NCBI RefSeq assembly: GCF_029607905.1
Contig: NZ_JAPHEH010000001.1
Location: forward strand, 1,455,530-1,519,529
DNA: 64,000 bases
Reading direction: 5' to 3'
DNA from: Thiovibrio frasassiensis
GTDB lineage: Bacteria > Desulfobacterota > Desulfobulbia > Desulfobulbales > Desulfurivibrionaceae
Part shown: in pieces, positions 28,570 through 45,243 of the stretch
Numbering within the stretch: position 1 is the stretch's first letter
How the letters are laid out: every line of letters begins with the position of its first letter
Made by a program: the position numbers and the translations under genes
The notes under the pieces: model-generated
Told to the model about the DNA's origin: nothing
Database searches by the model: none
Seen by the model: the letters and a program-made list of their open reading frames with translations, nothing else

Positions 28570-29046
28570 GTGGTTGAAGGGAGTGTGAAGAATCCAGTCT
28601 GTCGTTTCCGCAGTCGCTCCGAGCATGTCCTCGACGCGAAAGGCAGGCTGAATATCGCGACCAGGTTCCGCGAGTCCTTGCGCAATCAGGGCGATGAACG
28701 GCTCATGGTCATTCCCTGGCACAACTGCATTCGGGCCTACCCGCTGCCGCAGTGGGAAGAGCTGGAGGCGGCCCTTTTGGCGCAAGGCCAGAAAAGCCCT
28801 GAAACAGTCAAGTTGATTCGGTACATGATCGGCGGCGCAGAGGAATGCGCCCTGGACAAGCAGGGGAGAATACTGCTTCCTGCAACCTTGCGGGAAGATT
28901 GCGGCATCAAGAAGGAAATCGTAGCGAACGGCATGATTACCTATTTTGAAATCTGGGATAAGGAAGTTTGGGCGGCTGAAAACAAACCGACCGCCCAGAA
29001 TTTCCAGAATTTCGAGCAGGTTCTTCAGGAATTGGGGCTGTTCTGA
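28570..29046 (+). CDS. mraZ: Transcriptional regulator MraZ
   Basis: First gene of the dcw cluster; a 158-residue AbrB-fold DNA-binding protein that forms a ring and represses its own operon. The duplicated fold is visible: SEHVLDAKGRLNIATRFRESL in the first half and EECALDKQGRILLPATLREDCG in the second. The start is a GTG at 28570, just after the operator boxes. The ending LQELGLF is longer than in minimal MraZ but normal for this group. Confidence 0.93.
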   Translation: MVEGSVKNPVCRFRSRSEHVLDAKGRLNIATRFRESLRNQGDERLMVIPWHNCIRAYPLPQWEELEAALLAQGQKSPETVKLIRYMIGGAEECALDKQGRILLPATLREDCGIKKEIVANGMITYFEIWDKEVWAAENKPTAQNFQNFEQVLQELGLF

Positions 29047-29052
29047 TCCGGT

Positions 29053-29940
29053 ATGCAGCCATCTCATCTCCCGGTCATGCTCGAGGAAGTGGTCACCTGT
29101 CTGGCCCCGAAGGATGGAGGTCTGTATGTTGACGGCAATCTGGGGTTGGGTGGCCATACGGAAGGAATTCTTGAGGCCTGCGGTCCCACCGGGCAGGTTG
29201 TGGGGTTTGACTGGGATGCTGCGGCTCTGACCCTGGCACAGGAACGGCTGGCCCGCTTTGCAGGCCGTGTTCGCTTTGTGCATGAAAATTTCACCTCGAT
29301 AAAGGAGACCCTGATGGAGCTTGGCATTGGCACAATTGATGGCCTGCTGCTCGATCTGGGTCTTTCTTCGTTGCAGCTGGACGGAAGTGGTCGCGGTTTC
29401 AGTTTTAAAGGCAGCGAGCCGCTTGATATGCGGATGGACCAGCGTCAGGCCACCACGGCGGCCGAGTTGGTCAACGAGGCCTCCGAGGAAGAGCTGGCCG
29501 ACATTTTTTTCTACTATGGCGAAGAGCGCCAGGCGAGAAGGATCGCCGAGCAAATTGTCGCAGAGCGTCGGAAAGAGAAGATTGTTACCACCGATCAGCT
29601 TGTCGCTCTAGTGGCGCATGCCATTCCCAAGCGTTTCCATCCCCCCAAAATTCATGTGGCCACCAAGGTGTTTCAGGCGTTGCGCATCGCCGTAAACCGG
29701 GAGCTTGACAGTCTTGAGCAGATACTGGCCGATGGCGCTACCCTGCTTGCGCCCGGGGCCAGATTTTGCGTCATCTCCTTCCATTCCCTGGAAGATCGGT
29801 TGGTGAAACAGGCCTTTCGCGAAAATCCCCTCCTCGAGGTCGTGACCGCCAAGCCCATTATCCCCAGTCGTGCTGAATGCGTGCGTAATCCCCGAGCCAG
29901 AAGTGCCAAGCTGCGGGTTGCCGCACGAGGAAGAACCTGA
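29053..29940 (+). CDS. rsmH: 16S rRNA (cytosine-1402-N4) methyltransferase RsmH (MraW)
   Basis: SAM-dependent methyltransferase for C1402 of 16S rRNA, the normal second gene of dcw clusters. 295 residues. Family signatures are HLPVMLEEVVTCL at the N-terminus, VDGNLGLGGHTEGIL (SAM site), LLLDLGLSSLQLD and FCVISFHSLEDRLVK near the C-terminus. It lies 6 bases after mraZ and 1 base before ftsL. Confidence 0.96.
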   Translation: MQPSHLPVMLEEVVTCLAPKDGGLYVDGNLGLGGHTEGILEACGPTGQVVGFDWDAAALTLAQERLARFAGRVRFVHENFTSIKETLMELGIGTIDGLLLDLGLSSLQLDGSGRGFSFKGSEPLDMRMDQRQATTAAELVNEASEEELADIFFYYGEERQARRIAEQIVAERRKEKIVTTDQLVALVAHAIPKRFHPPKIHVATKVFQALRIAVNRELDSLEQILADGATLLAPGARFCVISFHSLEDRLVKQAFRENPLLEVVTAKPIIPSRAECVRNPRARSAKLRVAARGRT

Positions 29941-29941
29941 G

Positions 29942-30286
29942 ATGCGGGATTATGCGAATAAATACTCCGGCGGGGGTAGCAAAAGGCAACATGTAACCGG
30001 GCGCCGGGGCAACGGTTCGGATCGGCAGGTGCCTTTCAAAATTATAGGGGTGGTGGCGGTTGTCGCCATGTTGTTGGGGGTCGCCAGCAGCCTCTGGTTT
30101 GGCGTGGCTTTGCAAGACAACCTTGGCCGACTCGCGAAAAACAAACAGGAAGGAACCGAACTCATGGCTGCCAATGCGGCGCTCTCCGCGGAAAAGGAAG
30201 CGCTGCTGCAGCAGGGGAAGATAGAAGCTGCGGCGGCAAGGCTGGGATTGTTCCCGCCGTCTGACAAGCAGAAGAGAAGGCCATAG
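29942..30286 (+). CDS. ftsL: Cell division protein FtsL-like
   Basis: A 114-residue single-pass membrane protein. A basic cytoplasmic N-terminus is followed by one transmembrane helix (VVAVVAMLLGVASSLWFGV) and a periplasmic coiled-coil-like segment (ELMAANAALSAEKEALLQQGKIEAAAARLG). Identification rests on size, topology and position between rsmH and ftsI; FtsL sequences are poorly conserved. The ATG at 29942 follows GAGGAAG and is 1 base after the rsmH stop. In other bacteria FtsL bridges FtsQ/FtsB and activates FtsWI. Confidence 0.8.
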   Translation: MRDYANKYSGGGSKRQHVTGRRGNGSDRQVPFKIIGVVAVVAMLLGVASSLWFGVALQDNLGRLAKNKQEGTELMAANAALSAEKEALLQQGKIEAAAARLGLFPPSDKQKRRP

Positions 30287-30294
30287 GCCCCGGG

Positions 30295-32295
30295 ATGAAG
30301 AAACGGGCAATGGAGGGGAAAGACCGAAAACCGGCCATGGTGGGCGGTTTTTTTCTCTTGTTGGCCCTGGTCTTTGTCGCGGTGGCCATTAAAAGTCAGT
30401 TTTTTGAGGGAAGCGGACAACCGGAGCAGAGCGAAGGGCCAAAGGACGAACAGGCCAGCGTCGTACGGGGCGGCGGGAGAAGAAATATCTATGATCGGAA
30501 CTTCATGGAACTGGCCGTGAGTTTTCAGCGGAGTTCTCTCTATGCTCGCCCCTTGGAGCTTGAAGCGCCCGAGGAAGTTGCCCGTGAGGTTGCAAAAATT
30601 CTTGGACTGGATGAGAAAAATATTCTCTCGGCCCTGAAGGGGGAAAGAAGTTTTGCCTGGTTGGGCAGGGATCTTTCCCGCGAGAAAGCGGTGAAAATCG
30701 CGGATCTCAACCTGAAGGGGGTCTACCGCATCAACCAGGTGCAGCGGTTTTACCCGGGAAATCAGCTTGGCGCCCATGTCATCGGTTTTATTAAGGATGA
30801 ACAGGGGTTGGCCGGGGTCGAGTTTTACTATGACAGTGTCCTGCGGGGCGGCGGCGTATACGACCAAAGACTTGCGGCGGCAGGGGTGAGCCGGAAAATC
30901 GCCGAGGGGAGTGACAGCGCCAGCCTTATCCTGACTCTCGATATTCATCTCCAGAATGTTCTTGAGCAAAAGCTGAAAACTCTGGTGCAAAATACCGGGG
31001 CCAAGGGTGGGGTGGCGGTGCTCATGGTCCCGGATACCGGGGAGATTATCGGCTTGGCAAGTTTGCCGGATTATGACCCCAATCGCTTTTGGGAATTCCG
31101 GGCTGAGGCGCGCAGAAATAGGGCCATTGAAGATGTCCTTGACCTTGGCGCCATGGACCGGCTCTTCCAGGCGGCGGCGGTCATGGAGAAGAGGATTGGT
31201 CAGAAAAAAAACGTGCTGGCGGAAGACGAGCCGGCTCCCGAGATGGAAGCGGTCCAGCGGAGTGTCTGGAACGAGGTGCAGGGCGGCAGGTATATTTCTC
31301 TGGAAGGGGTTGGCTTTGGCCAGACCGTGTTGGGGCGTGATGAGTATAACGCCTTTGCGGACAGAATCGGTCTGACCGTCAAGGGGGAAGTGGATTTGCC
31401 CGAGGCGCTGTTTACCGTAAAGGATATCCCTGGAGGGGTAACGAACAAGAAGGACGAAGGGGTTGGTGAGGAAAGCTCTCCGGATCCGAGCAAAACCATG
31501 GTCCCGCATCCCGATAAAGATTCTGTCGCAACAGCAACCCCTCTGGCGTTGCTGTCGGCATTTTGCCGGTTGATCAACGGAGGCCAGGTGATGACACCCC
31601 ATGTGCTCCGCGCTGTCTGGCAGGATGAGCAGGTGTGGGATGTCCCGGTCCGGCAGGGAATAGGCGAGTTTGCTGTGCCGGCCCAGGTAAGCGCGAATAT
31701 GCGCAACGAAATGAAAAAGGCAGCAGGGGCCGGGCGGGGGAATTTTCTCATCGAATCGCTGCTGCAAAAAAATAGTGCGGTATCAAGCGAGGCGCAGTCA
31801 GCCGGGGACGGGGGCGAAAATACGGTTGCAGGGAAGGCGGTGATGGAAAGTATTCTCTTGGGGATGGCCCCGTTGGAACATCCGGAAATAGCCATGATCG
31901 TTGTCCTTGAGGACGCCCGTCTCGACCTGCAGTCCAGATCGCCGGTTCGGGATCTGGCCGAAGAAATGATGCCCCAGGCGAGAGCGGCGTTGCAGAATCA
32001 GGTAAAGCCGCCCAGCGCCAAGGAGTTGGCGGTGCGGGAAGGCGGCTATTACAAAAAAATGGAAATGATTCAGGCGAAATCCACCCTGCCCGCTGCCTTG
32101 GGCCAGGGTCCGCAGGGGCTTGTCATGCCGGATGTTCGGGGCTTAAGCGGGCGCAAGGCGATGCAGATTTTGCAGCCTTATGGGGTAAGATTGCAGATTA
32201 CCGGCTCAGGACAGGTGGCAAGTCAATATCCGCTTGCAGGCTCAGCCTTGCGGGGTGTGGAAGAGTGTGTGCTGAATCTTAAGGCGATGCAGTAA
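30295..32295 (+). CDS. ftsI: FtsI/PBP3-like protein with all transpeptidase motifs lost
   Basis: A 666-residue protein in the ftsI position with a class B PBP layout: transmembrane helix near residues 17-35, dimerisation region (NIYDRN... to RFYPGNQLGAHVIGF), a transpeptidase-like domain (about 225-560) and a C-terminal PASTA domain (VMPDVRGLSGRKAMQIL). Three motifs are changed. The SxxK site reads A286-M-D-R289, in a context that otherwise aligns (RRNRAIEDVLDLG before, LFQAAAVME after). The SxN site near 335-339 reads SLEGV. The KTG site reads K514-A-V-M. It should therefore not acylate substrate or beta-lactams and is best viewed as a structural pseudoenzyme. The frame is intact over 2 kb, so it is not simply a pseudogene. 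Confidence 0.88.
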   Translation: MKKRAMEGKDRKPAMVGGFFLLLALVFVAVAIKSQFFEGSGQPEQSEGPKDEQASVVRGGGRRNIYDRNFMELAVSFQRSSLYARPLELEAPEEVAREVAKILGLDEKNILSALKGERSFAWLGRDLSREKAVKIADLNLKGVYRINQVQRFYPGNQLGAHVIGFIKDEQGLAGVEFYYDSVLRGGGVYDQRLAAAGVSRKIAEGSDSASLILTLDIHLQNVLEQKLKTLVQNTGAKGGVAVLMVPDTGEIIGLASLPDYDPNRFWEFRAEARRNRAIEDVLDLGAMDRLFQAAAVMEKRIGQKKNVLAEDEPAPEMEAVQRSVWNEVQGGRYISLEGVGFGQTVLGRDEYNAFADRIGLTVKGEVDLPEALFTVKDIPGGVTNKKDEGVGEESSPDPSKTMVPHPDKDSVATATPLALLSAFCRLINGGQVMTPHVLRAVWQDEQVWDVPVRQGIGEFAVPAQVSANMRNEMKKAAGAGRGNFLIESLLQKNSAVSSEAQSAGDGGENTVAGKAVMESILLGMAPLEHPEIAMIVVLEDARLDLQSRSPVRDLAEEMMPQARAALQNQVKPPSAKELAVREGGYYKKMEMIQAKSTLPAALGQGPQGLVMPDVRGLSGRKAMQILQPYGVRLQITGSGQVASQYPLAGSALRGVEECVLNLKAMQ

Positions 32296-32317
32296 GGGAA
32301 GAAACCGGGTACTGGAC

Positions 32318-33913
32318 ATGGGAAAAAATAAGAACCTTGCCGCAGTATCTCTGAGGAAACTGGCCGAGGAGCTGGAAAACGTGAACCTGGACAGGCTGGA
32401 GGATAAAGCGATACGCAGCATCACCGCCGACTCCCGACAGGTCGGGGAGGGTTCCTTGTTTGTCGCAATTCCGGGGCTGACGGTGGATGGCCATGATTAT
32501 CTGGATGTTGCCGTAAAGAAAGGGTGCGCGGCCGTGCTGGTTGGCAAGGGCCGGTGCCGCGGCTGGAAGCATGCCAAGGTTGCCTGTCTGGAGCAGAGCG
32601 ATCCGGCAAAAGCCCTTGGCCAGTTGGCGGCAAGGTTTCATGGCCATCCCGCTCGCCGGATGTGTATGGTCGGAATTACCGGCACCAATGGCAAGACAAC
32701 GACAACCTATCTCCTGGAGTCGATGATCCGCGAGGCAGGGGGCAATCCCGGGGTGATCGGCACCGTGAACTATCGCTATAATGCGGTGGAGATCCCTGCC
32801 CCCTTCACCACCCCTGATCCAGTGAGCCTGCAACGGATCCTGGCGGAGATGGCGGAAAACGGGGTGACCCATGTGCTCATGGAGACCTCCTCCCATGCCT
32901 TGGAGCAAAAAAGGGTGGCCGGCCTCCGCTTCGATGTGGCGCTTTTTACCAATCTGAGCCGGGATCACCTTGATTTTCACGGGGATATGGAGAGCTATTT
33001 CGCCAGTAAAAAAATGCTTTTTACCGAGTACCTGAAAGAGGATGGCAAGGCGGTGGTCTTCTGTGATGACCGCGATGAAACCGGGACGGATTGGGGGCAT
33101 CGGTTGCTGGCAGAACTGCAGGCAGACAAAGCGCTGGGGTACACGGGGAAAAAGGGGCGGGTTCTGTTAGATTGTGGTTTTTCAGGAACCAAGGTGGCTG
33201 TGCAAGAGGCCCGGGAGAGTCTGGGCGGCACCGTAGCCAGTTTGGCAACCCCGGTTGGCGAGCTGCAGGTCCGTTCCGATCTGGTTGGCACCTTTAACCT
33301 GAAAAATCTCCTCGGTGCGGTCGGGGTGGGTGTGGCCCTGCGGATTTCCCCAGATGAGATTGTTGCCGGTCTGGCCCACGCCCAGCACGCGCCCGGACGA
33401 TTGGAAAGGGTTCCCGCTCCCCCGGGAGTGAGCGTTTTTGTTGATTTTGCCCATTCACCGGATGCGCTGGCCAATGTGCTCCAGACCATGCGCCGCCTCA
33501 CCAAGGGACGGTTGCTCGTTATTTTCGGCTGCGGCGGCGACCGCGACCGGGGGAAGCGCCCCCTGATGGGCAAGGTTGCCGGATCGCTGGCCGATGTGGT
33601 GGTGCTCACCTCGGATAATCCGCGGAGTGAAAACCCCGCTGCCATCCTGCGGGATATTGAGGCGGGGCTTTTGGAAATCGCCCTGCCGCGCATGCGGCTT
33701 GAGGCGCTTCTTACGCGGGAAGCACAGCAGGGTTACGATATTGTGCCCTCCCGGAGAGAGGCGATCCGGGAAACCATCCGTCATGCCCGGTCCGGAGATG
33801 TGGTGTTGTTGTGCGGCAAAGGACACGAGACCTACCAAATAACTCCGGAGGGGAGATTTTTTTTCGATGACAGGCTTGAAGCTGCGGCCCAGGCGGCAGT
33901 GATCAACTGGTAA
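32318..33913 (+). CDS. murE: UDP-MurNAc-L-Ala-D-Glu:meso-DAP ligase MurE
   Basis: Cytoplasmic Mur ligase adding meso-diaminopimelate to the peptidoglycan precursor. 531 residues. The ATP loop is GITGTNGKTTTTYLLESM, and the DNPRSEN motif specific for meso-DAP recognition is present (LTSDNPRSENPAAIL), as are DSRQVGEGSLFVAIPG and FVDFAHSPDALANVL. The C-terminus is complete. It follows ftsI by 22 bases. Confidence 0.96.
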   Translation: MGKNKNLAAVSLRKLAEELENVNLDRLEDKAIRSITADSRQVGEGSLFVAIPGLTVDGHDYLDVAVKKGCAAVLVGKGRCRGWKHAKVACLEQSDPAKALGQLAARFHGHPARRMCMVGITGTNGKTTTTYLLESMIREAGGNPGVIGTVNYRYNAVEIPAPFTTPDPVSLQRILAEMAENGVTHVLMETSSHALEQKRVAGLRFDVALFTNLSRDHLDFHGDMESYFASKKMLFTEYLKEDGKAVVFCDDRDETGTDWGHRLLAELQADKALGYTGKKGRVLLDCGFSGTKVAVQEARESLGGTVASLATPVGELQVRSDLVGTFNLKNLLGAVGVGVALRISPDEIVAGLAHAQHAPGRLERVPAPPGVSVFVDFAHSPDALANVLQTMRRLTKGRLLVIFGCGGDRDRGKRPLMGKVAGSLADVVVLTSDNPRSENPAAILRDIEAGLLEIALPRMRLEALLTREAQQGYDIVPSRREAIRETIRHARSGDVVLLCGKGHETYQITPEGRFFFDDRLEAAAQAAVINW

Positions 33914-33959
33914 TGTTCGAAAAAGGTTGGCAGGTTTTTTTAAAACAGGGGGGAGCGTG

Positions 33960-35456
33960 ATGGAACTGGCAGCGGTACGCAAGACAGGGGCATGCACGAT
34001 GAACACCGGAAGAAGAGAAAATAAATCCGAGGCAGGTGTTGGCTCCATGCAGAATCCAATCTGGACGCTCTCCCAGGTTCTTTTGGCAACGGGAGGGAGG
34101 TTTCTCGCCGGCAGAACCGAGGCCGGTTTTCGGCGGGTCTGCACGGACAGCCGGGCTGTTGAGCCGGGGGATCTTTTTGTCGCCCTGCGCGGGGAAACCT
34201 TTGACGGCCATGCCTATCTTGCCCAGGCGGTGGAGAAAGGGGCCGCCGGGTTGCTGGTGGAAACGATGCCCGAGAAGATGCCGCCGGTGCCGGTGGTCTT
34301 GGTAGCGGACACCCTCCGGGCTCTCGGGGATCTGGCCGCCTACCGGCGATCCCTGATGCCGGATCTGCAGGTGGTGGCAATGACCGGCAGCTGTGGCAAG
34401 ACCACGGTCAAGGAGATGATCGCCGCGATTCTGGAAAGGGAATACAACGTCTTGAAGACGAAGGGAAATTTTAATAATCTGATCGGTCTGCCCCTTTCTC
34501 TTTTGCCTGTGGAATTGCACCATGATTTTGCCGTATTGGAAATGGGCATGAATCAGCCCGGCGAGATAGCCCGCCTCACCGAGATTGCCGACCCGGATAT
34601 CGCCTGCATCACCAATGTTCAGGATGCCCATTTGGCCGGATTGAGTGATATCAACGGGGTAGCCAGGGCCAAGGGCGAGCTCTTTGCCGGCATCAAGGCC
34701 TGGGGCAAGCTGGTGGTAAATATTGACGACAAAAGAGTCCGGGGCATCGCCCGGCGCTGCAGTCAGAAAAAAATTACCTTTGGCCGCAGTCCTAAGGCGG
34801 ATATCCGCGGTCTGCGCTTGCGCAGCCTTGGGGAGCGCGGCATGGCCTTTACCCTGAAGATCGGCAGTAACGTGGGTCGGGTGAATATCCGGGGTCTTGG
34901 CGCCCATAATGTGCAGAACGCCTTGGCCGCAGCGGGCATGGCCCATGCGGCGGGGGTGAAATTTAAGGATATCGTGGCCGGGCTGGAGAGTTTCGCCCCC
35001 TTTGAAAAACGGCTCCAGGTGCAGAAGCTTTCCGGCGGAATCAGGCTGGTGAACGACGCGTACAACGCCAATCCCTCCTCGGTGCTGGCCGCCCTTGACA
35101 CATTGCGTCAGATGGACCGCACCCATAAAAAAGTGGTCATCCTCGGGGACATGCTGGAACTCGGGGCACAGAGTGTTGCCTCGCATCAAGACATTGGCAA
35201 ACAGGTGGCGCGGCTTGGCTTCGACGGACTGCTGGTGGTCGGCGACTTTGCCGAAACCTTGGTGAGCGCGGCCTGGAAAGCGGGGATGAGCAAGAAGAAA
35301 GCCATGTTTTTTGCCAAAAAAGAACAGATCACGGACTGGCTGCGTGAGAGCATTGATGCGGGCTTCCTGCGCCCCGGGGATTGGGTGCTGGTCAAAGGCT
35401 CGCGCGGGATGCGGATGGAAACAATAACCCACGATCTGCTTGAGAAGCAGGGCTAA
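33960..35456 (+). CDS. murF: UDP-MurNAc-tripeptide:D-Ala-D-Ala ligase MurF
   Basis: Last cytoplasmic ligase of the stem peptide. Motifs: TDSRAVEPGDLFVALRGETFDGH, ATP loop MTGSCGKTTVKEMIAAIL, KGNFNNLIGLPLSLL, and NDAYNANPSSVLAAL. The start at 33960 has GGGGAG 4-5 bases ahead and gives 498 residues, with about 30 residues before the conserved region. An ATG at 34047 would give the usual N-terminus (MQNPIWTLSQVL) but has a weaker ribosome site. Confidence 0.94.
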   Translation: MELAAVRKTGACTMNTGRRENKSEAGVGSMQNPIWTLSQVLLATGGRFLAGRTEAGFRRVCTDSRAVEPGDLFVALRGETFDGHAYLAQAVEKGAAGLLVETMPEKMPPVPVVLVADTLRALGDLAAYRRSLMPDLQVVAMTGSCGKTTVKEMIAAILEREYNVLKTKGNFNNLIGLPLSLLPVELHHDFAVLEMGMNQPGEIARLTEIADPDIACITNVQDAHLAGLSDINGVARAKGELFAGIKAWGKLVVNIDDKRVRGIARRCSQKKITFGRSPKADIRGLRLRSLGERGMAFTLKIGSNVGRVNIRGLGAHNVQNALAAAGMAHAAGVKFKDIVAGLESFAPFEKRLQVQKLSGGIRLVNDAYNANPSSVLAALDTLRQMDRTHKKVVILGDMLELGAQSVASHQDIGKQVARLGFDGLLVVGDFAETLVSAAWKAGMSKKKAMFFAKKEQITDWLRESIDAGFLRPGDWVLVKGSRGMRMETITHDLLEKQG

Positions 35457-35468
35457 GGATAAGAAACC

Positions 35469-36548
35469 ATGCTCTACCATTTTCTCTATCCGCTCCATGC
35501 CTATTTCAGCGCGCTGAATGTTTTTCGCTATATCACCTTTCGCGCCATCGGAGCAACGCTGACCGCTTTTCTGATTCTGTTGCTGGTTGGCAACAGATTC
35601 ATCAAAGCGCTGCAGAAAAACCAGATCGGTCAGGTGGTGCGGGACGACGGCCCGGCAAGCCACTTCAGCAAGCGGGGAGTGCCCACCATGGGAGGGGTGC
35701 TCATTCTTTTTGCCGTAACCGTGACCACCCTGCTCTGGGTCGATCTGGCAAACAGTTTTGTCTGGATCATCCTCGGGGTGACCCTCTGGTTCGGAGCAAT
35801 CGGCGCCTATGACGACTACTGCAAGATTAAAAAACAGAACAGCAAGGGGTTGAGTGCCCGGGGGAAGATATTCTGGCAGATCCTCGGCGCCTCCATAGCC
35901 GGGTTGCTCATCTATTTTGATCCGAATTTTGACGGACACCTGAGCTTTCCCTTTTTAAAGAATATACAGCCCGACCTGGGCACCTATTATGTGTTGTTCG
36001 CCATTCTTGTGGTGGTCGGCGCCTCGAACGCGGTGAATCTCACCGATGGCCTCGATGGCTTGGCAACCGGGCCTACGGTGGTGACGAGCAGTGTGTATTT
36101 GCTCTTTTCCTACCTGGCCGGACATGCCGGTTTGGCGGCATATCTGCAAATCCCCTATGTGCCTGGGGCAGGCGAGGTTGCCATCTTCTGCGGCGCCCTG
36201 GTTGGCGCCAGCCTTGGCTTTCTCTGGTTCAATGCCTACCCGGCCCAGATCTTCATGGGAGATGTGGGCTCCCTCTCCATGGGGGCAGCGCTCGGCATGG
36301 TGGCGATCATCATCAAGCAGGAGATGCTCCTCTGTATTGTCGGGGGAGTTTTTGTCATGGAGGCGGTTTCGGTCATTCTCCAGGTGGGTTTTTTCAAGAT
36401 GACCGGCGGCAAGAGGATCTTTCTCATGGCCCCGTTTCATCATCATTTTGAAAAGAAGGGGTGGACAGAGCCAAAGGTTGTGGTCCGATTCTGGATCATC
36501 TCCATCGTCCTGGGCTTGACTGCCTTGGCAACCTTGAAGCTGCGTTAG
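35469..36548 (+). CDS. mraY: Phospho-MurNAc-pentapeptide transferase MraY
   Basis: Integral membrane enzyme that makes lipid I from UDP-MurNAc-pentapeptide and undecaprenyl phosphate. 359 residues with ten predicted helices. Family motifs: GVPTMGGVLIL, GAYDDYCKIKKQNSKGLSARGK (Asp-rich active site), NAVNLTDGLDGLATGP, FMGDVGSLSMGA and the His-rich loop MAPFHHHFEKKGW. It is 12 bases after murF. Confidence 0.97.
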   Translation: MLYHFLYPLHAYFSALNVFRYITFRAIGATLTAFLILLLVGNRFIKALQKNQIGQVVRDDGPASHFSKRGVPTMGGVLILFAVTVTTLLWVDLANSFVWIILGVTLWFGAIGAYDDYCKIKKQNSKGLSARGKIFWQILGASIAGLLIYFDPNFDGHLSFPFLKNIQPDLGTYYVLFAILVVVGASNAVNLTDGLDGLATGPTVVTSSVYLLFSYLAGHAGLAAYLQIPYVPGAGEVAIFCGALVGASLGFLWFNAYPAQIFMGDVGSLSMGAALGMVAIIIKQEMLLCIVGGVFVMEAVSVILQVGFFKMTGGKRIFLMAPFHHHFEKKGWTEPKVVVRFWIISIVLGLTALATLKLR

Positions 36549-36569
36549 AACAAACAGGCGGAAAAGGCA

Positions 36570-37997
36570 ATGATGCACTGGAATCTCAAGGAAATACTGA
36601 AACCCGGAGCCCATGTAGTGGTGGTGGGCTTGGGCAAGTCAGGTGTTTCCGCGGTGCGATTCCTGCTCAAGCTTGGCGTGAAAATATCGGTTTCAGAGGG
36701 TGGCCGTCAGGAGAACCTTGAAGGAGACTTGGTTCGGTGGCTGAAGGAGAAAAGAGTTTTTGTAGAAACTGGCGGCCATACCTCTGAGCTTTTAACTTCG
36801 GCGGACTGTATTTTGGTAAGCCCTGGCGTACCGCTGGGCATCGCACCCCTTGCAGCGGCAAGGAAAAAAGGGATCCCTGTTTTGGGCGAGCTGGCTCTGG
36901 CCAAGGATTTTCTCAAGGTGCCGGTGGTGGCGGTGACCGGTACCAACGGCAAAAGCACGGTGACGAGCCTGATCGGCGATCTCCTCACCGGCAGCGGGAA
37001 AAAGGTTTTTGTCGGCGGCAATATCGGGGTTCCCCTGGCCGAGTATCTGGCCGGCCCCCAGGAGTGTGAGGCGGTGGTCCTTGAGGTGAGCAGCTTCCAG
37101 CTGGACAGCGGTGGTGAGTTTCGGCCCCAGGTGGGGGTGTTGCTCAATATCAGCCCGGACCATTTGGATCGCTACGATTCTTACGAAGCGTATATCGATT
37201 CGAAAATGTCGCTCTTTAAAAACCAGGCGCCCGGAGATGTCTCGGTCTTGAATGGCGACGATTCAGCAATCGCTGCGTGGTTGGCTGCAGAGGGTGCACA
37301 GAAAAGCCCTTGGCCGATTCGAGGAGAAATCAGGCAATACCGGAGTGGATGTACGAGCGGGATAGCCGCGTGCCTTAAGGGAACCAAGGTGCTGCTTGCT
37401 TCCGCAGAAGCTCCGGACAAGTTGGCTGAAGAATACGAGTTGTCGGGTACCCACCTTGCCCAGGCACCAAATACGGAAAATGCCATGGCGGCGATCCTTG
37501 CCGCCCGGGCCATGGGGTGCAGCCCGATAGCCATCCAGAACAGCCTGGCTGGTTTTACCCCCCTGCCGCACCGGTTGGCCCTGGTGGCGGAGATTGCGGG
37601 TGTCACCTATTATGACGACTCCAAGGGGACCAATGTCGGCGCTGTCTATTCCGCCCTGGCAGGCATGAAGCAACCGGTGGTCCTCATCGCCGGCGGCCGG
37701 GAGAAGGGTGGCGGCTACGAGATGCTGATTCCGTTGGTGCAGGAAAAGGTCCGAGGGATGGTTTTAATCGGCGAGGCACGGGAGGCAATGGCCAAGGCTT
37801 TTGCTCAGAGCACCCGGATTGATTTTGCCGAATCAATGGATGAGGCGGTACGAAAGGCGGGAAGTATGGCGGAGAAGGGAGATGCGGTTCTTTTATCTCC
37901 GGCCTGTGCAAGTTTTGACATGTTCAGAAGTTACAGCCATCGGGGCGAGATGTTTGCCCAGGCGGTAGGCAGGTTGGGGCGGCAGGACGCACAATAG
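36570..37997 (+). CDS. murD: UDP-MurNAc-L-Ala:D-Glu ligase MurD
   Basis: Adds D-glutamate to UDP-MurNAc-L-Ala. 475 residues. Motifs: VVVGLGKSGVSAVRFLLK at the N-terminus, ATP loop VTGTNGKSTVTSLIGDLL, EVSSFQLD, NISPDHLDRY and DDSKGTNVGAVYSAL, ending with the LLSPACASFDMF... segment typical of MurD. Two adjacent ATGs at 36570 and 36573 are both possible. In most dcw clusters ftsW follows; here it does not. Confidence 0.96.
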   Translation: MMHWNLKEILKPGAHVVVVGLGKSGVSAVRFLLKLGVKISVSEGGRQENLEGDLVRWLKEKRVFVETGGHTSELLTSADCILVSPGVPLGIAPLAAARKKGIPVLGELALAKDFLKVPVVAVTGTNGKSTVTSLIGDLLTGSGKKVFVGGNIGVPLAEYLAGPQECEAVVLEVSSFQLDSGGEFRPQVGVLLNISPDHLDRYDSYEAYIDSKMSLFKNQAPGDVSVLNGDDSAIAAWLAAEGAQKSPWPIRGEIRQYRSGCTSGIAACLKGTKVLLASAEAPDKLAEEYELSGTHLAQAPNTENAMAAILAARAMGCSPIAIQNSLAGFTPLPHRLALVAEIAGVTYYDDSKGTNVGAVYSALAGMKQPVVLIAGGREKGGGYEMLIPLVQEKVRGMVLIGEAREAMAKAFAQSTRIDFAESMDEAVRKAGSMAEKGDAVLLSPACASFDMFRSYSHRGEMFAQAVGRLGRQDAQ

Positions 37998-38076
37998 GAG
38001 TGCTTGACGGAAAAAGTCCGGACGGTTTTGTGTCTGAGGGGGCACGGCTGGGGCGGCAAAAGGCGAGGACGGGATA

Positions 38077-38268
38077 ATGCAGACAGTGTGCTGTGTGTGC
38101 CAGAAAACCAAGAGCCAAACAGGATGGATACAGGAGCAGCTGGTGAGTAAGGGAAGTCGGGTTTCCCATGGATATTGCCCGGACTGTTTTGATCGGACCA
38201 TGGAGCGGGCCCAAGGGTGGTTGTTGGCGAGAAGTGCGGGAAATCGGGGCTTGGCCCTGGGACGGTAA
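38077..38268 (+). CDS. Small Cys4 zinc-ribbon-like protein in the ftsW position
   Basis: A 63-residue ORF with a GAGGA ribosome site 7 bases upstream, in the 291-base gap between murD and murG. It has two CxxC pairs (CCVCQKTK and HGYCPDCFDR) about 30 residues apart. The pattern resembles the C-terminal ICxxCKKIR...SHGICPEC tail found on many sensor and receiver proteins of delta-proteobacteria, here standing alone. Metal binding is inferred from the Cys spacing; the function is unknown. It occupies the slot where ftsW normally sits. Confidence 0.65.
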   Translation: MQTVCCVCQKTKSQTGWIQEQLVSKGSRVSHGYCPDCFDRTMERAQGWLLARSAGNRGLALGR

Positions 38269-38288
38269 GGAATAAGAGAGGAATGTTG

Positions 38289-39365
38289 ATGCGGATGATC
38301 GTGACCGGAGGAGGAACAGGAGGGCATCTTTTTCCCGGCATTGCCGTGGCCGAAGAGATGTTGCGCCGTTTTCCCGAGGGCAAGATCCTTTTTGTCAGCA
38401 CGGATCGCGCCATTGACAATAAGGCCCTGGCCGGACGTTCCTTTGCGAAAAAGGCGATTGCCTGCCTGCCCATAAAGGGAAAGTCTCTCTGGGGAACCAT
38501 CAGGAGCGTGGCCCAGCTGCCCATCAGCCTGTGGCAGGCCTTGCGGATTGTGGGTGGATTCAAACCCCAGCTTGTTTTAGGGGTGGGCGGGTATGTGACT
38601 GGGCCGGTAGTGTTGGCGGCACACCTCATGGGAGTGAAAACCTGTATCCACGAGCAGAATTCTATTCCGGGCATGGCCAACAGGATGCTTGGAAAAATCG
38701 TTGACCAGGTATATATTTCCATCCCCGGCTCCGAGGATTTTTTCCCCAAGGGAAAGAGTGTGCTGACCGGGAATCCGGTGCGGGCTGAGTTGCTGGCAAC
38801 GGCTGCTCAGAAGAAGGAGCAGGGGGCAGAAAAAACGGTCCTGGTTTTGGGGGGCAGTCAGGGTGCGCACCGGGTCAATGCCTTGATGGTGGAGGCCTTA
38901 ACCGCGCACCAGTCTGGTGAGTCCGTTCGGGTGCACCACCAGACGGGAAACAGCGACGAAGCATGGGTGCGCAAGGCGTACGAAGAGGCAGGGGTTCCAG
39001 CCCAGGTCTCTGCCTTTATCACCGAGATGGCTGTGGCGTACCGGGACGCGGATCTTGTAGTCTCCCGGGCCGGGGCAACAACCCTGGCGGAGCTGGCGGT
39101 ACTGGGCAAGCCGGCTATTTTGATTCCCTATCCGTATGCCGCGGATGACCACCAGACGACCAACGCGGCGTATCTGGTACGGGGCGGGGCCGCCGTGATG
39201 TTTCAAGAGCGGGATCTCGATGGCTCAAAGCTGCGCGAGACGATACTGGGTCTGCTGGACGATGGCTCTCGGTTGCAGGGGATGGCAACGCAGATGCGGC
39301 AATACGGTCGGCCGGAAGCGACCGACGCCATTGTGGAAAAAAGCATGGAGTTGTTGGCCGCCTGA
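38289..39365 (+). CDS. murG: UDP-GlcNAc:lipid I GlcNAc transferase MurG
   Basis: Peripheral inner-membrane glycosyltransferase that converts lipid I to lipid II. 358 residues from the ATG at 38289, which has AGAGGA about 7 bases ahead; nearby in-frame ATGs at 38283 and 38295 are alternatives. Motifs: MIVTGGGTGGHLFPGIAVAEE, LGVGGYVTGPVVLAAHLMG, HEQNSIPGMANR, VLGGSQGAHRVN and the UDP-GlcNAc site VVSRAGATTLAELAVLGKP. Lipid II made here must be polymerised by enzymes encoded elsewhere, since no SEDS gene is present. Confidence 0.96.
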   Translation: MRMIVTGGGTGGHLFPGIAVAEEMLRRFPEGKILFVSTDRAIDNKALAGRSFAKKAIACLPIKGKSLWGTIRSVAQLPISLWQALRIVGGFKPQLVLGVGGYVTGPVVLAAHLMGVKTCIHEQNSIPGMANRMLGKIVDQVYISIPGSEDFFPKGKSVLTGNPVRAELLATAAQKKEQGAEKTVLVLGGSQGAHRVNALMVEALTAHQSGESVRVHHQTGNSDEAWVRKAYEEAGVPAQVSAFITEMAVAYRDADLVVSRAGATTLAELAVLGKPAILIPYPYAADDHQTTNAAYLVRGGAAVMFQERDLDGSKLRETILGLLDDGSRLQGMATQMRQYGRPEATDAIVEKSMELLAA

Positions 39366-39392
39366 GCGGTCGAGGGTTGAGGATACCATTGC

Positions 39393-40784
39393 ATGTATAA
39401 GAAAACACAACATATCCATTTCGTGGGCATCGGCGGCATAGGCATGAGCGGCATCGCCGAACTGCTCCTGAATCTCGGCTATGTCGTGAGCGGTTCGGAT
39501 CTGCGGGAGAGCGAGATCACCAAGCGTCTGGCCGGGCTGGGAGGCACGGTACACGTCGGCCATCAAGGGCAATGGATTGCCGGCGCCGACGTGGTGGTGA
39601 CCTCCTCGGCGGTACGGGAAAACAACCCGGAAGTGCAAGCGGCCCGTGGTGCGCATATCCCGGTCATCCCAAGGGCGGAGATGCTGGCGGAACTGATGCG
39701 CTTGAAGAAATACGGGATCGGCGTGGCGGGCAGTCATGGGAAAACCACCACCACTTCCATGCTCGGCTGGCTAATGGCTGAGGCAGGCCTTGATCCCACG
39801 GTGGTGATCGGCGGCAAGGTCAACAGCCTGGGCACCAACGCAAAATTGGGGGAGGGGGAGTTCCTGGTTGCCGAAGCGGATGAGTCCGACGGCTCCTTCT
39901 TGAAATTGTCCCCGGTCCTTGAGATCGTAACCAATATCGATTTGGAACATCTGGACCATTATCGGGATATTGAGGAGATCAAGGCCGCCTTCTTGGAATT
40001 CATCGAGAAGCTCCCTTTTTATGGGGCGGCGATTGTCTGCCTGGATGATGTTAATGTTGCTTCGATCCTTCCGCAGATCAGGAAACGGGTGATCACCTAC
40101 GGATTGACCAGTCAGGCCGAGGTACATGCCAGAGCAGTAACGGCACAGGGCTTGACCTCGGTTTTTGAAGTCTGCCGGAATGCGGAGGTGTTGGGGGAGA
40201 TAACCCTCAATGTTCCCGGCCAGCATAATGTTTATAACGCCTTGGCCGCCATCACCGTGGCCCTGGAGCTGGATATCCCCTTTCCCGTGATCCAGCAGGC
40301 GCTGAAAACCTTCAGCGGCGTCCAGCGGCGGTTGCAGATCAAGGGTGAGGTGAATGGGGTCATGGTTATTGATGATTATGGCCATCATCCCACCGAGATC
40401 AGGGCGACCTTGGCGGCGATGCGTTCGGCCTGGCCGAGAAAGCGGCTCATCGTCATGTTTCAGCCCCATCGCTACACGCGCACAGCCGGGTTGTTCAAGG
40501 AATTCAGCACCGCCTTCCATGAGGCGGATGTCCTGTTGCTCACGGAAATATATGCGGCCAGCGAAACCCCCATCGAGGGAGTCAGCGGGGCGGCGCTCTT
40601 GCAGGAGATCAAACTGCACGGGCAGAAGAACGCTCATTTTGTCGCGGATGTCGGCTCTCTGCCGCGCACGGTTTTGGGCATGGTGGAACCCGACGATATC
40701 GTCTTGACGCTGGGTGCCGGCAATATCTATCAGGTTGGCGAGGAACTCTTAGAGAAACTGGAGCAGGGCCATGGTGCCTGCTAG
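39393..40784 (+). CDS. murC: UDP-MurNAc:L-alanine ligase MurC
   Basis: First Mur ligase. 463 residues. Motifs: [38 protein letters not shown] loop [40 protein letters not shown] and [14 protein letters not shown] with FQPHRYTRT. It overlaps murB by 14 bases. Confidence 0.97.
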
Positions 40785-41772
40785 AGCCTGCAACCTGCAT
40801 GGCAGGCCAGACGGGGTGGTTCTGCCTGTAACGGGACCGAGGAAGATGCAAAAAGGGATGGACAAGGGGTGGCCGGAGCAACTGCGTACCCTCTGGCCAG
40901 GCGAGATCGAATGGGACAGTCCCATGGCCCGTTGGTGCACCCTGCAGGTGGGCGGCCCGGCCAAGGCCATCGCCATGCCGGCCAGCCGGGAAGAATTGCA
41001 AAGCCTTATCGCGCTGTTGGCCCGACTCGGGGTAAGTTGGCGGGTTATCGGCCGGGGCAGCAACCTCCTTGTCTCGGATGCGGGCTATGATGGGGTCATT
41101 GTAATGCTGGGCCGGAAGTTCGCGGCCATTTCCCAGCACCCCGGGGAAAAAGCCGGGGAGAGACGGGTGCGGGTTGAGGCAGGATGCAGCCTGATGAAGT
41201 TGGTCAACTGGTGTGCTCGCCAGGGATTGCAGGGTTTGGAATTTGCCGCAGGCATTCCGGGCTCGGTGGGTGGCGCAGTGGTTATGAATGCCGGGGCCTG
41301 GGGCATGGAGATGGGTGAGACGCTCTTCTCGGTTTCCTTCTTGCGCGAGTCCGGGGAGATTGTGGACAGAGAAAAAGAGGCTCTGCTCTTTTCGTACCGC
41401 CATTTGGAGACAGAGGGGATGATTGTTGTGGCGGCGGAGTTTTTATTGCAGGCTGGGGATCGGCAGCTCATTGAGAGGAAATGTGCTCAGTTGATGCGGG
41501 AGCGGAAAGAAAAGCAGCCGCAGGGTTTGGCCAATGCCGGGTCGTTTTTTAAGAACCCCGCAGGGTTGCCTGCCGCCGGCAAGCTTATTCAAGACGCTGG
41601 ACTCAAAGGGGTTTGCCTCGGTGGCGCGCAAGTTTCCGAGGTGCATGCGAATTTTCTCGTGAATACCGGGACTGCCACACCCCAGGATTTTCTCGGTTTG
41701 ATGCGGCTTGTTCAGGAAAAGGTTGCAGAGCGGTTCGGTGTCTGGCTGGAGCCGGAAGTACATATTCTTTAA
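40771..41772 (+). CDS. murB: UDP-N-acetylenolpyruvoylglucosamine reductase MurB
   Basis: FAD enzyme that reduces UDP-GlcNAc-enolpyruvate to UDP-MurNAc. 333 residues from the ATG at 40771, which has GGAG 7 bases ahead inside murC. Later ATGs at 40846 and 40858 would remove a non-conserved leader. Motifs: [54 protein letters not shown], the proton donor Ser in NAGSFFKNP and the C-terminal [11 protein letters not shown] with the catalytic Glu. The ddl gene often found after murB is absent. Confidence 0.95.
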
Positions 41773-41804
41773 GCGGTTTGGGCAAAAAAGGGGCAAAAAC
41801 GATT

Positions 41805-42623
41805 TTGCGAAAGGGAAAGCCCATACAGCAGCGCTACGGGAGCAGCAAGAAAAGCCGCACCCTGGACCTGAAGAAAAAACTGGCCATTTTGGTGGTTGGT
41901 TTGCTGCTGCTGGTAGCAGGTTTTGCTGTGGTTGGCTTTATCGTTTATAAAGCCATGGGGCGGGCGGATTTTTTCCAGATCACCGCCACCAATATTCAGG
42001 GCTGCCGGAGGACCACTAAGAACCTCATTCTGGAAATGAGCGGAGTGGATGTGTACAGCAATCTCCTGGCGCTCGATATCAAGAGGGTGAAGTCCGGGAT
42101 TGAGGCCCATGAATGGGTCGAATCGGTGGAGATCGAAAGGGACTGGCCCAACCGTTTGACCATTGTTGTTAAGGAACGACTGCCGGTGGCCATTGCCAGC
42201 CTTGATAACGGGCTGTTCTATCTTGATCAGAAAGGAGTGGCCTTTGCCAAGGTATTGCCGCCCGAGGACATGGATTATCCCATCATCTCCGGGTTGAAAA
42301 GGGATGAATGGCCGCGGAACCTCAAGGATTCACCATTGGGGGAGGCCCTGCAGCTCATTAAATATGCGGGCCAGGGGAGTTCCATTCTGCCAAAGCAGAA
42401 TATCTCTCAGTTGCATGTGGACGGGGATGAAAATATCATCCTCTATCTGGTGGACCGGCCGTTTCCGATCCATCTGGGAGCAGGCAATGTCGGGACCAAA
42501 TATTACTGGCTGACCAAGGTGCTGTACAAATTGTACAAGAGCAAGGAATTTGACAAAGCCGCCTATGTGAGAATGGACTATGGGCGGAACCAAGTTCTGG
42601 TAGGTTTTGACGAAGAAGGATGA
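41805..42623 (+). CDS. ftsQ: Cell division protein FtsQ
   Basis: Bitopic division protein of 272 residues: basic N-terminus, one transmembrane helix (LAILVVGLLLLVAGFAVVGFIVY), then the POTRA domain (ITATNIQGCRRTTKNLILEMSGVDVYSNLLALDIKRVKSGIEAH.. in part) and the FtsQ beta domain with VKERLPVAIA. The frame is open from 41613, but the sequence before about 41800 overlaps murB and is not FtsQ-like, so the TTG at 41805 is chosen; this start is uncertain. In other species FtsQ scaffolds FtsL/FtsB and hence FtsWI. Confidence 0.88.
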   Translation: MRKGKPIQQRYGSSKKSRTLDLKKKLAILVVGLLLLVAGFAVVGFIVYKAMGRADFFQITATNIQGCRRTTKNLILEMSGVDVYSNLLALDIKRVKSGIEAHEWVESVEIERDWPNRLTIVVKERLPVAIASLDNGLFYLDQKGVAFAKVLPPEDMDYPIISGLKRDEWPRNLKDSPLGEALQLIKYAGQGSSILPKQNISQLHVDGDENIILYLVDRPFPIHLGAGNVGTKYYWLTKVLYKLYKSKEFDKAAYVRMDYGRNQVLVGFDEEG

Positions 42624-42773
42624 GCTGAAAACGTTTCTCCCGACATGCTCGCATCGGGGGATGGATAGGTGTCCAGCGGAAAGAACCAGCGGACACGAGC
42701 AAAGAAGCAACGGTTTGGCTTGTGATAACCGTCGGTGGCGTGACTTGTTCCGGGATCGACTAAAGGTGAATAA

Positions 42774-44006
42774 ATGGCACATGAAGAACGTGGCGATCTG
42801 ATTGTCGGGCTGGATATCGGCACCACCAAGATATGCGTGGTGGTTGGGGAGGTCCATGATAACCGCCTTGATATTATCGGCATTGGCCGGCACCCCTCGG
42901 TGGGCTTACGGCGCGGGGTGGTGGTCAATATCGAGAGCACCGTCCATTCCATCAGGCAGGCAGTGGAAGAGGCGGAGCGGATGGCGGGCTGCGAGATCGG
43001 CTCCGTGTATGTGGGCATCGCCGGCAGTCACATCAAGAGCTTCAACAGCCACGGTCTGATCGCCATCAAGCATAACGAGATCCGGCAGGACGACATCGAC
43101 AGGGTGGTGGATGCGGCCCGGGCCGTACCCATCCCGCCGGACCAGGAAGTGATCCATGTGCTCCCGCAGGAGTTCATGGTGGACGGACAGGCGGATATCC
43201 AGGATCCCCTCGGCATGACCGGCGTCCGTCTCGAATCCGATGTGCATATCGTGACCGGTTCGGCAACCGCGGTGCACAACATTGTCAAATGTTGCAACCG
43301 GGCCGGACTTGAGGTGACGGATGTGGTCCTCGAACCCTTGGCCTCGGCAGGCGCGGTCCTGACCCGGGAAGAAATGGAATTGGGGGTGGGGTTGCTGGAC
43401 ATCGGCGGCGGCACTGCCGATTTGGCGATCTTTGCCGATGGGACGATCAAGCATACCTTTGTTCTTGGGCTGGGCGGACAGAATCTCACCAACGATCTCT
43501 CCATAGGGCTGCGTACTCCGCAGAAAGAGGCGGAAAGGCTGAAGGAGGAGTTCGGGAGTGCCTTGGCCTCGCTGATCGACAAGGATCAGGTCATCGAGGT
43601 GCCCAGTGTGGGGGGGAGAAAGAATCGGAAGCTTTCCCGGCGGGTCATGGGAGAGATTCTCGAGCCCCGGGTTGAGGAGATGCTTACCCTCATCAATCAG
43701 GAACTGTTGGATTCCAAGTACAAGGAAATGGTCAACGCCGGTATGGTGCTGACCGGCGGGTCCTGCCTGCTGGCCAACATGGAAGAGCTGGCGGAACAGA
43801 TCTTTGATCTGCCGGTGCGCATCGGCCGGCCGGAAAATATCGGCGGGGTGGTGGATGTGGTGGGGACACCGCAGTGGGCAACCGGCGTTGGTCTGGTTGT
43901 CTACGGTATGAAGAATGGACCGGGGGAGAGATTCAAACGGCCCAAGGGTGGAATAGTAGGGAGAGTCACCGGTCGGATGAAAGACTGGTTTAAGGGAATA
44001 GTATAA
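42774..44006 (+). CDS. ftsA: Cell division protein FtsA
   Basis: Actin-like membrane tether of FtsZ. 410 residues. Motifs: LIVGLDIGTTKICVVVGEV (phosphate 1), the 1C domain region with GCEIGSVYVGIAGSH, LLDIGGGTADLAIFADG (phosphate 2), GMVLTGGSCLLANMEELA (adenosine) and the amphipathic C-terminal membrane helix (GRMKDWFKGIV). It starts 150 bases after ftsQ with AAAGGTG upstream. Confidence 0.96.
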   Translation: MAHEERGDLIVGLDIGTTKICVVVGEVHDNRLDIIGIGRHPSVGLRRGVVVNIESTVHSIRQAVEEAERMAGCEIGSVYVGIAGSHIKSFNSHGLIAIKHNEIRQDDIDRVVDAARAVPIPPDQEVIHVLPQEFMVDGQADIQDPLGMTGVRLESDVHIVTGSATAVHNIVKCCNRAGLEVTDVVLEPLASAGAVLTREEMELGVGLLDIGGGTADLAIFADGTIKHTFVLGLGGQNLTNDLSIGLRTPQKEAERLKEEFGSALASLIDKDQVIEVPSVGGRKNRKLSRRVMGEILEPRVEEMLTLINQELLDSKYKEMVNAGMVLTGGSCLLANMEELAEQIFDLPVRIGRPENIGGVVDVVGTPQWATGVGLVVYGMKNGPGERFKRPKGGIVGRVTGRMKDWFKGIV

Positions 44007-44073
44007 AAACGCTCATCAGGCGCCAGGCGATGTAGGGGAGTAGGTCAATGACCTTGAACAGGGAGAGCAGGAT

Positions 44074-45243
44074 ATGACTTTTAAATTCGCGGAAACAGAG
44101 TCACGGGCAAAGATCAAGGTTTTTGGCGTTGGCGGCGGTGGGGGCAATGCGGTCAACACCATGGTGGACAGCAAGATCCTCGGGGTGGAGTTCATCGCCG
44201 GCAACACCGATATCCAGGACTTGGAGAAATCCAAGGCCGATGTCCAGGTGCAGCTTGGCAAGAGTGTCGCCAAGGGACTGGGGGCCGGAGCCAACCCTGA
44301 AAGAGGCAGGGAGGCGGCGGAGGAGTCCATCGATGAAATCAGAAAGCAGTTGAAGGACTGCGACATGGTTTTTATCACCGCCGGCTTGGGTGGCGGAACC
44401 GGGACCGGGGCCGCGCCGGTTATCGCGAGAATTGCCAAGGAACTTGGGGCCCTCACCGTGGCGGTCGTTACCAAGCCCTTTGCTTTCGAGGGCAGAGCCC
44501 GGATGAAAAATGCCGAGCTTGGCTGGAAGAATCTCAAAGAACATGTGGACACCATCATCACCATTCCCAATGACCGCTTGATTTCCATGAGCCAGAAGGG
44601 GACCCGCTTCATCGACGGGATGAAGATGGCGGACGATGTTCTGGTGCAGGCGGTGAAAGGCATTACCGATCTGATCAACCTGCCCGGCTATATCAACCCG
44701 GATTTTGCCGATGTGCGTGCCATCATGAACGAGATGGGGCAGGCGCTCATGGGTTCAGGCTATGGGGTGGGTGAAAACCGGGCCGTTGAGGCGGTGAACA
44801 TGGCGATCAACAGCCCGCTTTTGCAGGACATCAGTATCGATGGCGCCAAGGGGGTTTTGGTCAATATCTCGGCCAGCCGGGAGACCTTGACCATGCCGGA
44901 GGTGACCGAGGCAACCACCAAGATCTACCAGGAGGTGCATGAGGACGCCAATATTATTCTGGGCGTGATCTTTGACGAGAATCTGGGAGACGAGTTGCAG
45001 GTAACGGTTATTGCCACCGGTATCCGCGATACCGTGGAAGAGATCGAGGAGTTGCCGGACAAGGTGCAGCTCATGCCGAAAAAACGGGAGCCCGCCGCAC
45101 AGCAGCTGCCGTTCAGAAAAGGGGAGCAGGGCATGGCTGCGGGCCGCGCTGTGGCCAACGGTATGCAGAGATCCTATGCCAACAATATTTTAAACGAGCA
45201 GGACTACGACCGGCCGACCTTTTTGCGCCGGAATGAAAGCTGA
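44074..45243 (+). CDS. ftsZ: Cell division GTPase FtsZ
   Basis: Tubulin homologue that forms the Z ring. 389 residues. It has KVFGVGGGGGNAVNTM, the tubulin signature GGGTGTG near residue 107, the T7 loop NPDFADVRAIMNEMGQALMG, and a C-terminal peptide DRPTFLRRNES that binds FtsA. It closes the dcw cluster. Its normal sequence shows that the organism divides with a Z ring even though its FtsI is degenerate and ftsW is missing here. Confidence 0.98.
   Translation: MTFKFAETESRAKIKVFGVGGGGGNAVNTMVDSKILGVEFIAGNTDIQDLEKSKADVQVQLGKSVAKGLGAGANPERGREAAEESIDEIRKQLKDCDMVFITAGLGGGTGTGAAPVIARIAKELGALTVAVVTKPFAFEGRARMKNAELGWKNLKEHVDTIITIPNDRLISMSQKGTRFIDGMKMADDVLVQAVKGITDLINLPGYINPDFADVRAIMNEMGQALMGSGYGVGENRAVEAVNMAINSPLLQDISIDGAKGVLVNISASRETLTMPEVTEATTKIYQEVHEDANIILGVIFDENLGDELQVTVIATGIRDTVEEIEELPDKVQLMPKKREPAAQQLPFRKGEQGMAAGRAVANGMQRSYANNILNEQDYDRPTFLRRNES

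Follow-up and report, generated by a model that had tools for sequence, protein, structure and literature searches.

A motif-less FtsI homologue in the FtsW-free dcw cluster of Thiovibrio frasassiensis and other Desulfobulbales

Introduction

FtsW and FtsI are usually regarded as the universal synthases of the septal wall, FtsW being a polymerase that is normally activated by FtsI. The catalytic SxxK motif contains the serine that is acylated and a lysine that serves as general base. In E. coli, the activation signal passes from FtsN through FtsQLB to FtsI and then to FtsW, with the FtsI pedestal acting as the SEDS-activating hub (PMC8078798). Bacillus subtilis can divide with a catalytically dead PBP2B, provided that PBP3 supplies transpeptidation (PMC5656894). 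The main published exception we found to a universal FtsW/FtsI is Clostridioides difficile, which has no canonical FtsW/FtsI pair; septation is carried out by the class A penicillin-binding protein (PBP) PBP1, and the class B PBP3 stimulates septum synthesis non-catalytically (PMC10693644, PMC12539705).

Among bacteria closer to the locus described here, two species of Desulfobulbus and two cable bacteria are reported to lack ftsW along with zipA and ftsN, in a study that takes FtsI to be the septal synthase that is active there (PMC7873302). In Thermodesulfobacteria, too, the dcw cluster has been described as having lost ftsW (PMC8871954). We found no report in the open-access literature of FtsI inactivation in either of these groups, or of a naturally inactive FtsI in general. 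The absence of FtsW is thus already known in four Desulfobulbaceae; the inactivation of FtsI is the new part, as far as the open-access literature shows.

Results

We analyzed a 64,000-nucleotide stretch (the window) of the Thiovibrio frasassiensis genome, whose assembly measures 2.84 Mb and is 95.5% complete. The window contains a complete dcw cluster with the gene order mraZ-rsmH-ftsL-ftsI(dead)-murE-murF-mraY-murD-murG-murC-murB-ftsQ-ftsA-ftsZ (28570..45243; this and all features below lie on the + strand), which was delineated from open reading frames (ORFs) and from synteny in 54 loci of the order. The gene under study (30295..32295) sits between ftsL and murE, the usual dcw position of FtsI. 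The ftsL gene directly upstream (29870..30286) was assigned from its ORF, its position, and weak NCBIfam FtsL matches below cut-off. The junction between murD and murG (37998..38216) is the place of ftsW in FtsW-positive relatives; examination of ORFs, a profile search, and comparison with loci of the order and outgroup revealed no ftsW, or any other gene, at this junction of the window. The murE and murF genes are separate in the window and fused into an ORF of ~1010-1100 amino acids in much of the order (L071, L072, L075, L080-L098, L106, and L108; families f4, f5 in part, f11, and f12).

The ORF in the ftsI slot starts with ATG and continues unbroken for 666 amino acids, and Pfam recognizes PBP_dimer (residues 62-185; PF03717, 40.8 bits, cut-off 24.4), two weak Transpeptidase pieces, and PASTA (residues 610-652). 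The hydrophobic stretch PAMVGGFFLLLALVFVAVAIKSQFF near the N terminus (approximately residues 14-36; 30334..30402) is predicted to anchor the protein in the membrane; a structure prediction from 18 sequences, a low-confidence model with a mean pLDDT of 36, places a helix at residues 12-36. The anchor is followed by the pedestal or PBP_dimer domain (residues 62-206; 30478..30912), the remnant of the transpeptidase domain containing the PF00905 pieces (residues 207-545; 30913..31929), and the PASTA domain (residues 608-666; 32116..32292; PF03793). The best NCBIfam match is SpoVD (TIGR02214) at 172 bits, under the equivalog cut-off of 688 bits. Thus, the class B PBP architecture and intact frame in the ftsI slot that a first-pass annotation of the DNA had described are borne out by the ORF and by Pfam.

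The top match in the Protein Data Bank is Pseudomonas aeruginosa FtsI. The segment RNRAIEDVLDLGAMDRLFQAAAVME aligns without gaps with a 25-residue stretch of this enzyme that runs through the catalytic helix, and A286 and R289 fall exactly on its catalytic serine and lysine. The first-pass annotation was therefore correct in reading A286-M-D-R289 (31150..31161) as the replacement of the catalytic SxxK. It had also found no SxN; the order-wide alignment and comparison with FtsW-positive relatives revealed none in the protein, and the motif is missing from all 53 homologues compared. Its claim for KTG holds in part. The motif is indeed lost, as the entire strand is absent and low-complexity sequence stands in its place, but KAVM is not its counterpart; this tetrapeptide sits just ahead of the next conserved strand (VMESILLGMAP / AYRSLFAGFAP), out of register with KTG. 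A displaced catalytic motif was considered and rejected, the scattered matches to S..K or K[TS]G being nowhere in register. The S..K in the homologues of loci L067 and L102 lies one turn downstream of the site and is not accompanied by KTG. With no catalytic serine or lysine and no SxN or KTG left, the protein is predicted to carry out no transpeptidation and to bind no beta-lactam covalently; the lost serine predicts that the dead FtsI is itself insensitive to beta-lactams.

A search of the genome with PF01098 identified exactly one SEDS protein, which passes the RodA profile (TIGR02210; 427.6 versus a cut-off of 336.7) and fails the FtsW profile (TIGR02614; 297.4 versus 337.5). Its gene lies in the order mreB-mreC-mreD-mrdA-rodA, and the adjoining MrdA passes the MrdA cut-off. 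Because the sole SEDS protein scores as RodA and is placed in this setting, we conclude that the genome lacks FtsW. PF00905 detected MrdA with intact motifs (SVFK/KTGT), three class A PBPs, and the pieces of FtsI, and nothing else. MrdA (PBP2) is accordingly the only class B PBP with intact motifs, the point that the first-pass annotation had raised, and the idea that another enzyme of this class had taken over from FtsI was rejected. The state of FtsI would not make the cell insensitive to beta-lactams, since the motifs are intact in MrdA and in the class A PBPs. The class A PBPs comprise a PBP1A-like protein, a PBP1B-like protein (UB2H), and an atypical protein of 874 amino acids. The latter (L004, C1:2587089-2589710) has a divergent transglycosylase domain that PF00912 matches at positions 19-155 only (110.7 bits), and frames of ~950-970 amino acids that resemble it occur in genomes G017, G025, and G033.

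The frame of FtsI remains open in all 17 species of the genus, with 70-82% identity; in G007 and G008 the gene is interrupted only by contig ends. None of 25 aligned homologues from the family has SxxK, SxN, or KTG, and the three motifs are missing from all 53 FtsI sequences of the order (12 families, window included). In the 53-sequence comparison, the motifs are retained by MrdA and by two class B PBPs from the outgroup, and no FtsI of the order carried catalytic residues at the motif positions, an outcome that upholds the first-pass reading of the sites. The open frame throughout the genus and a motif loss common to the order indicate that the frame is not a chance one. The motif-less sequences include that of Desulfurivibrio alkaliphilus AHT2, a cultured, non-spore-forming curved rod (PMC5016858). 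Its genome is complete, and artefacts of draft genomes thus do not explain the loss.

We extracted dcw loci from 54 genomes of the order. No ftsW stands between murD and murG in any locus that spans both genes, and all 52 loci that reach the ftsI slot have a gene there. A single SEDS gene was detected in 113 of 117 genomes of the order; of the other four, two have fragments and two have none. The first-pass annotation missed both the genome-wide absence of FtsW and the order-wide extent of the trait. Individual genomes deserve comment. The SEDS match of G108 consists of pieces at contig edges. In G036, assembled as one contig, the sole rodA is broken by a one-base frameshift in a run of C (L149, C1 near 138110), which is probably a sequencing error. 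G061 (family f11), a metagenome-assembled genome (MAG) rated 99% complete, has no SEDS protein, no PF00905 match of MrdA strength, and no true MreB; either its mre-mrdA-rodA operon falls in an assembly gap, or the organism may lack any SEDS-bPBP pair.

Selection acts unevenly on the domains of the protein. Median omega among 15 sequences of the genus (105 pairs) is 0.053 for the pedestal, the strongest purifying selection in the protein, 0.092 for PASTA, and 0.175 for the whole of FtsI; it rises to 0.34 in the stretch of the transpeptidase remnant that follows the old SxxK and precedes the C-terminal part. The corresponding values for neighboring genes are 0.068 (mraY), 0.093 (rsmH), 0.132 (murE), and 0.268 (ftsL). 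At the level of the order, the best-kept parts are PASTA (mean pairwise identity 43%, with an occupancy of 0.99) and the pedestal (37%); the middle of the transpeptidase remnant shows 17% identity at an occupancy of 0.65. The first-pass annotation had argued for selection on a non-catalytic role and proposed dN/dS as a check. The result agrees with that argument: pedestal and PASTA are strongly constrained, the former active site is relaxed, and frames are intact in 12 families. This domain-wise pattern is that of a protein kept for contacts rather than catalysis and speaks against a relic.

Most genomes of the phylum outside the order encode two SEDS proteins. In ten outgroup dcw loci that contain ftsW, FtsI carries SxxK, SSN, and KTGT (STFK/SSNI/KTGT), and the motifs are likewise present in FtsI of an eleventh outgroup on a short contig (G122). 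FtsI has decayed in FtsW-less families outside the order, in some of them further than within it. It is full length but dead in f28 and dead also in f66 and f72. In f39 it is a stub of 334-340 amino acids with traces of a much eroded pedestal and without PASTA; in f35 and f65, remnants of 248-329 amino acids match the window protein by BLAST and have lost the pedestal. Neither domain is therefore needed everywhere. Most stubs of the FtsW-less families fall below the Pfam cut-off, and their identity as FtsI accordingly depends on position and weak similarity. Taken locus by locus, loss of FtsW and decay of FtsI coincide in every locus read.

Mapping of FtsW loss onto the best tree of the phylum (eight concatenated dcw proteins, LG+G4) required three changes, and a tree constrained to a single origin was rejected (p-AU 0.02, LG+G4). 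These results tentatively suggest more than one loss of FtsW in the phylum; with long branches and uneven composition the signal is weak, and a single event retains some probability. G183 (family f43, L123) presents the reverse case: its single SEDS protein is a dcw-located FtsW, and its FtsI is intact.

Discussion

The ftsI-slot protein of T. frasassiensis is FtsI by descent and gene position, and it has very probably become a pseudoenzyme that acts as a non-catalytic scaffold or activator of division in a divisome that is free of FtsW. We infer this role from features that are directly observed, namely, the loss of the motifs and of FtsW, the order-wide conservation, the domain-wise selection, and the intact RodA-MrdA and class A PBPs. 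The dead FtsI would be anchored in the membrane and would serve the divisome through its pedestal and through its PASTA domain, which is of the peptidoglycan-binding type. FtsQ and FtsL would still recruit and act on it, and it would in turn recruit or activate another synthase at mid-cell, either a class A PBP or RodA-MrdA. Another enzyme must build the septal wall because FtsW and the catalytic residues of FtsI are both lost, which leaves RodA-MrdA, class A PBPs, or both as the source. We give the class A PBPs about an even chance of being the partner, RodA-MrdA a substantial but lesser one, and both together or some other enzyme a small one. The order keeps a tool set like that of C. difficile (RodA-MrdA plus class A PBPs), and we accordingly propose a scaffold or activator for either. 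It is somewhat probable that the whole order, including the relatives of cable bacteria, divides without FtsW-FtsI, using FtsI as an adaptor, and that this loss and decay occurred more than once in the phylum.

Two accounts of the septal synthase compete. That class A PBPs build the septum under non-catalytic regulation by the dead FtsI, much as in C. difficile, is quite possible, if short of even. Class A septation has a precedent in that organism, the window's genome encodes three such enzymes, and two to six PF00912 proteins occur per sampled genome of the order. At least one PBP of the transglycosylase type is present in 59 of 59 genomes tested, several of the FtsW-less ones having a single one plus RodA-MrdA; however, we found no direct link of FtsI to any class A PBP gene. 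A more doubtful but still plausible account has RodA-MrdA serve both elongation and division, the pedestal of the dead FtsI giving RodA a second activator at the septum. The window's genome encodes no SEDS-bPBP pair other than RodA-MrdA, and the most constrained domain of the dead FtsI is the very part known to activate SEDS proteins. Against this, Thermodesulfobacteria-like and related lineages kept RodA while the pedestal eroded or disappeared, and one Desulfobulbus-like MAG yielded no RodA, MrdA, or MreB, although an assembly gap could account for the absence.

Other explanations dispense with a structural role. A functionless relic, decaying since the loss of FtsW, would fit the relaxed, length-variable region of the old active site and the truncated remnants in other lineages. 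We consider it improbable, given a frame that is intact across 12 families, a pedestal whose omega is no higher than that of MraY, and invariant PASTA residues throughout the order. A protein that kept or gained another enzymatic activity through different residues is more improbable still; the transpeptidase fold is partly recognizable, but no conserved cluster of Ser, Cys, Lys, or His replaces the motifs across the order, and the conserved residues lie in the pedestal, the strands, and PASTA. Sequencing error or a chance frame has a negligible probability and is refuted by the agreement of independent genomes from many sites, the complete AHT2 genome among them.

A non-catalytic scaffold or activator, the reading we prefer, can be set beside the described systems. 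The dead FtsI shares with P. aeruginosa and E. coli FtsI (PBP3) the dcw position, the anchor, the pedestal, and the fold through the SxxK helix; it differs in having no SxxK, SxN, or KTG and no FtsW partner, and in the presence of PASTA. Its domain order is that of the PASTA-containing class B PBPs of the SpoVD/PBP2B type, but it is catalytically dead and its host is a Gram-negative non-spore-former. The divisome of C. difficile resembles that of the order, with no canonical FtsW/FtsI pair and with RodA-PBP2 and class A PBPs present, and its septation can involve a class B PBP in a non-catalytic capacity, as we propose for the dead FtsI. However, the dcw-encoded SpoVD/SpoVE of C. difficile remain active and serve sporulation, whereas the order lost FtsW and its dcw FtsI is dead. 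In B. subtilis, the S309A variant of PBP2B provides a dead FtsI homologue that supports division; that variant is engineered, FtsW is present, and PBP3 rescues it, whereas the dead FtsI of the order is natural and ancient.

An order of non-spore-forming, sulfur- and sulfate-metabolizing Gram-negative bacteria in which FtsW is gone and FtsI is naturally inactivated amounts to a natural experiment of long standing, one that sets the structural job of FtsI apart from its catalytic job and reveals which domains are worth keeping. The dead FtsI also calls for a correction of the cable-bacteria literature, where FtsI is assumed to make the septal wall. Cultured, non-pathogenic models in which to find the septum-building enzyme are at hand, for example D. 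alkaliphilus. One candidate septal synthase is a class A PBP of very large size (open frame of ~1100-1150 amino acids), of which the window's own genome yielded no copy; it is present in most sampled genomes of the order, with examples at L133 (D. alkaliphilus C1:1977000-1982000) and L134.
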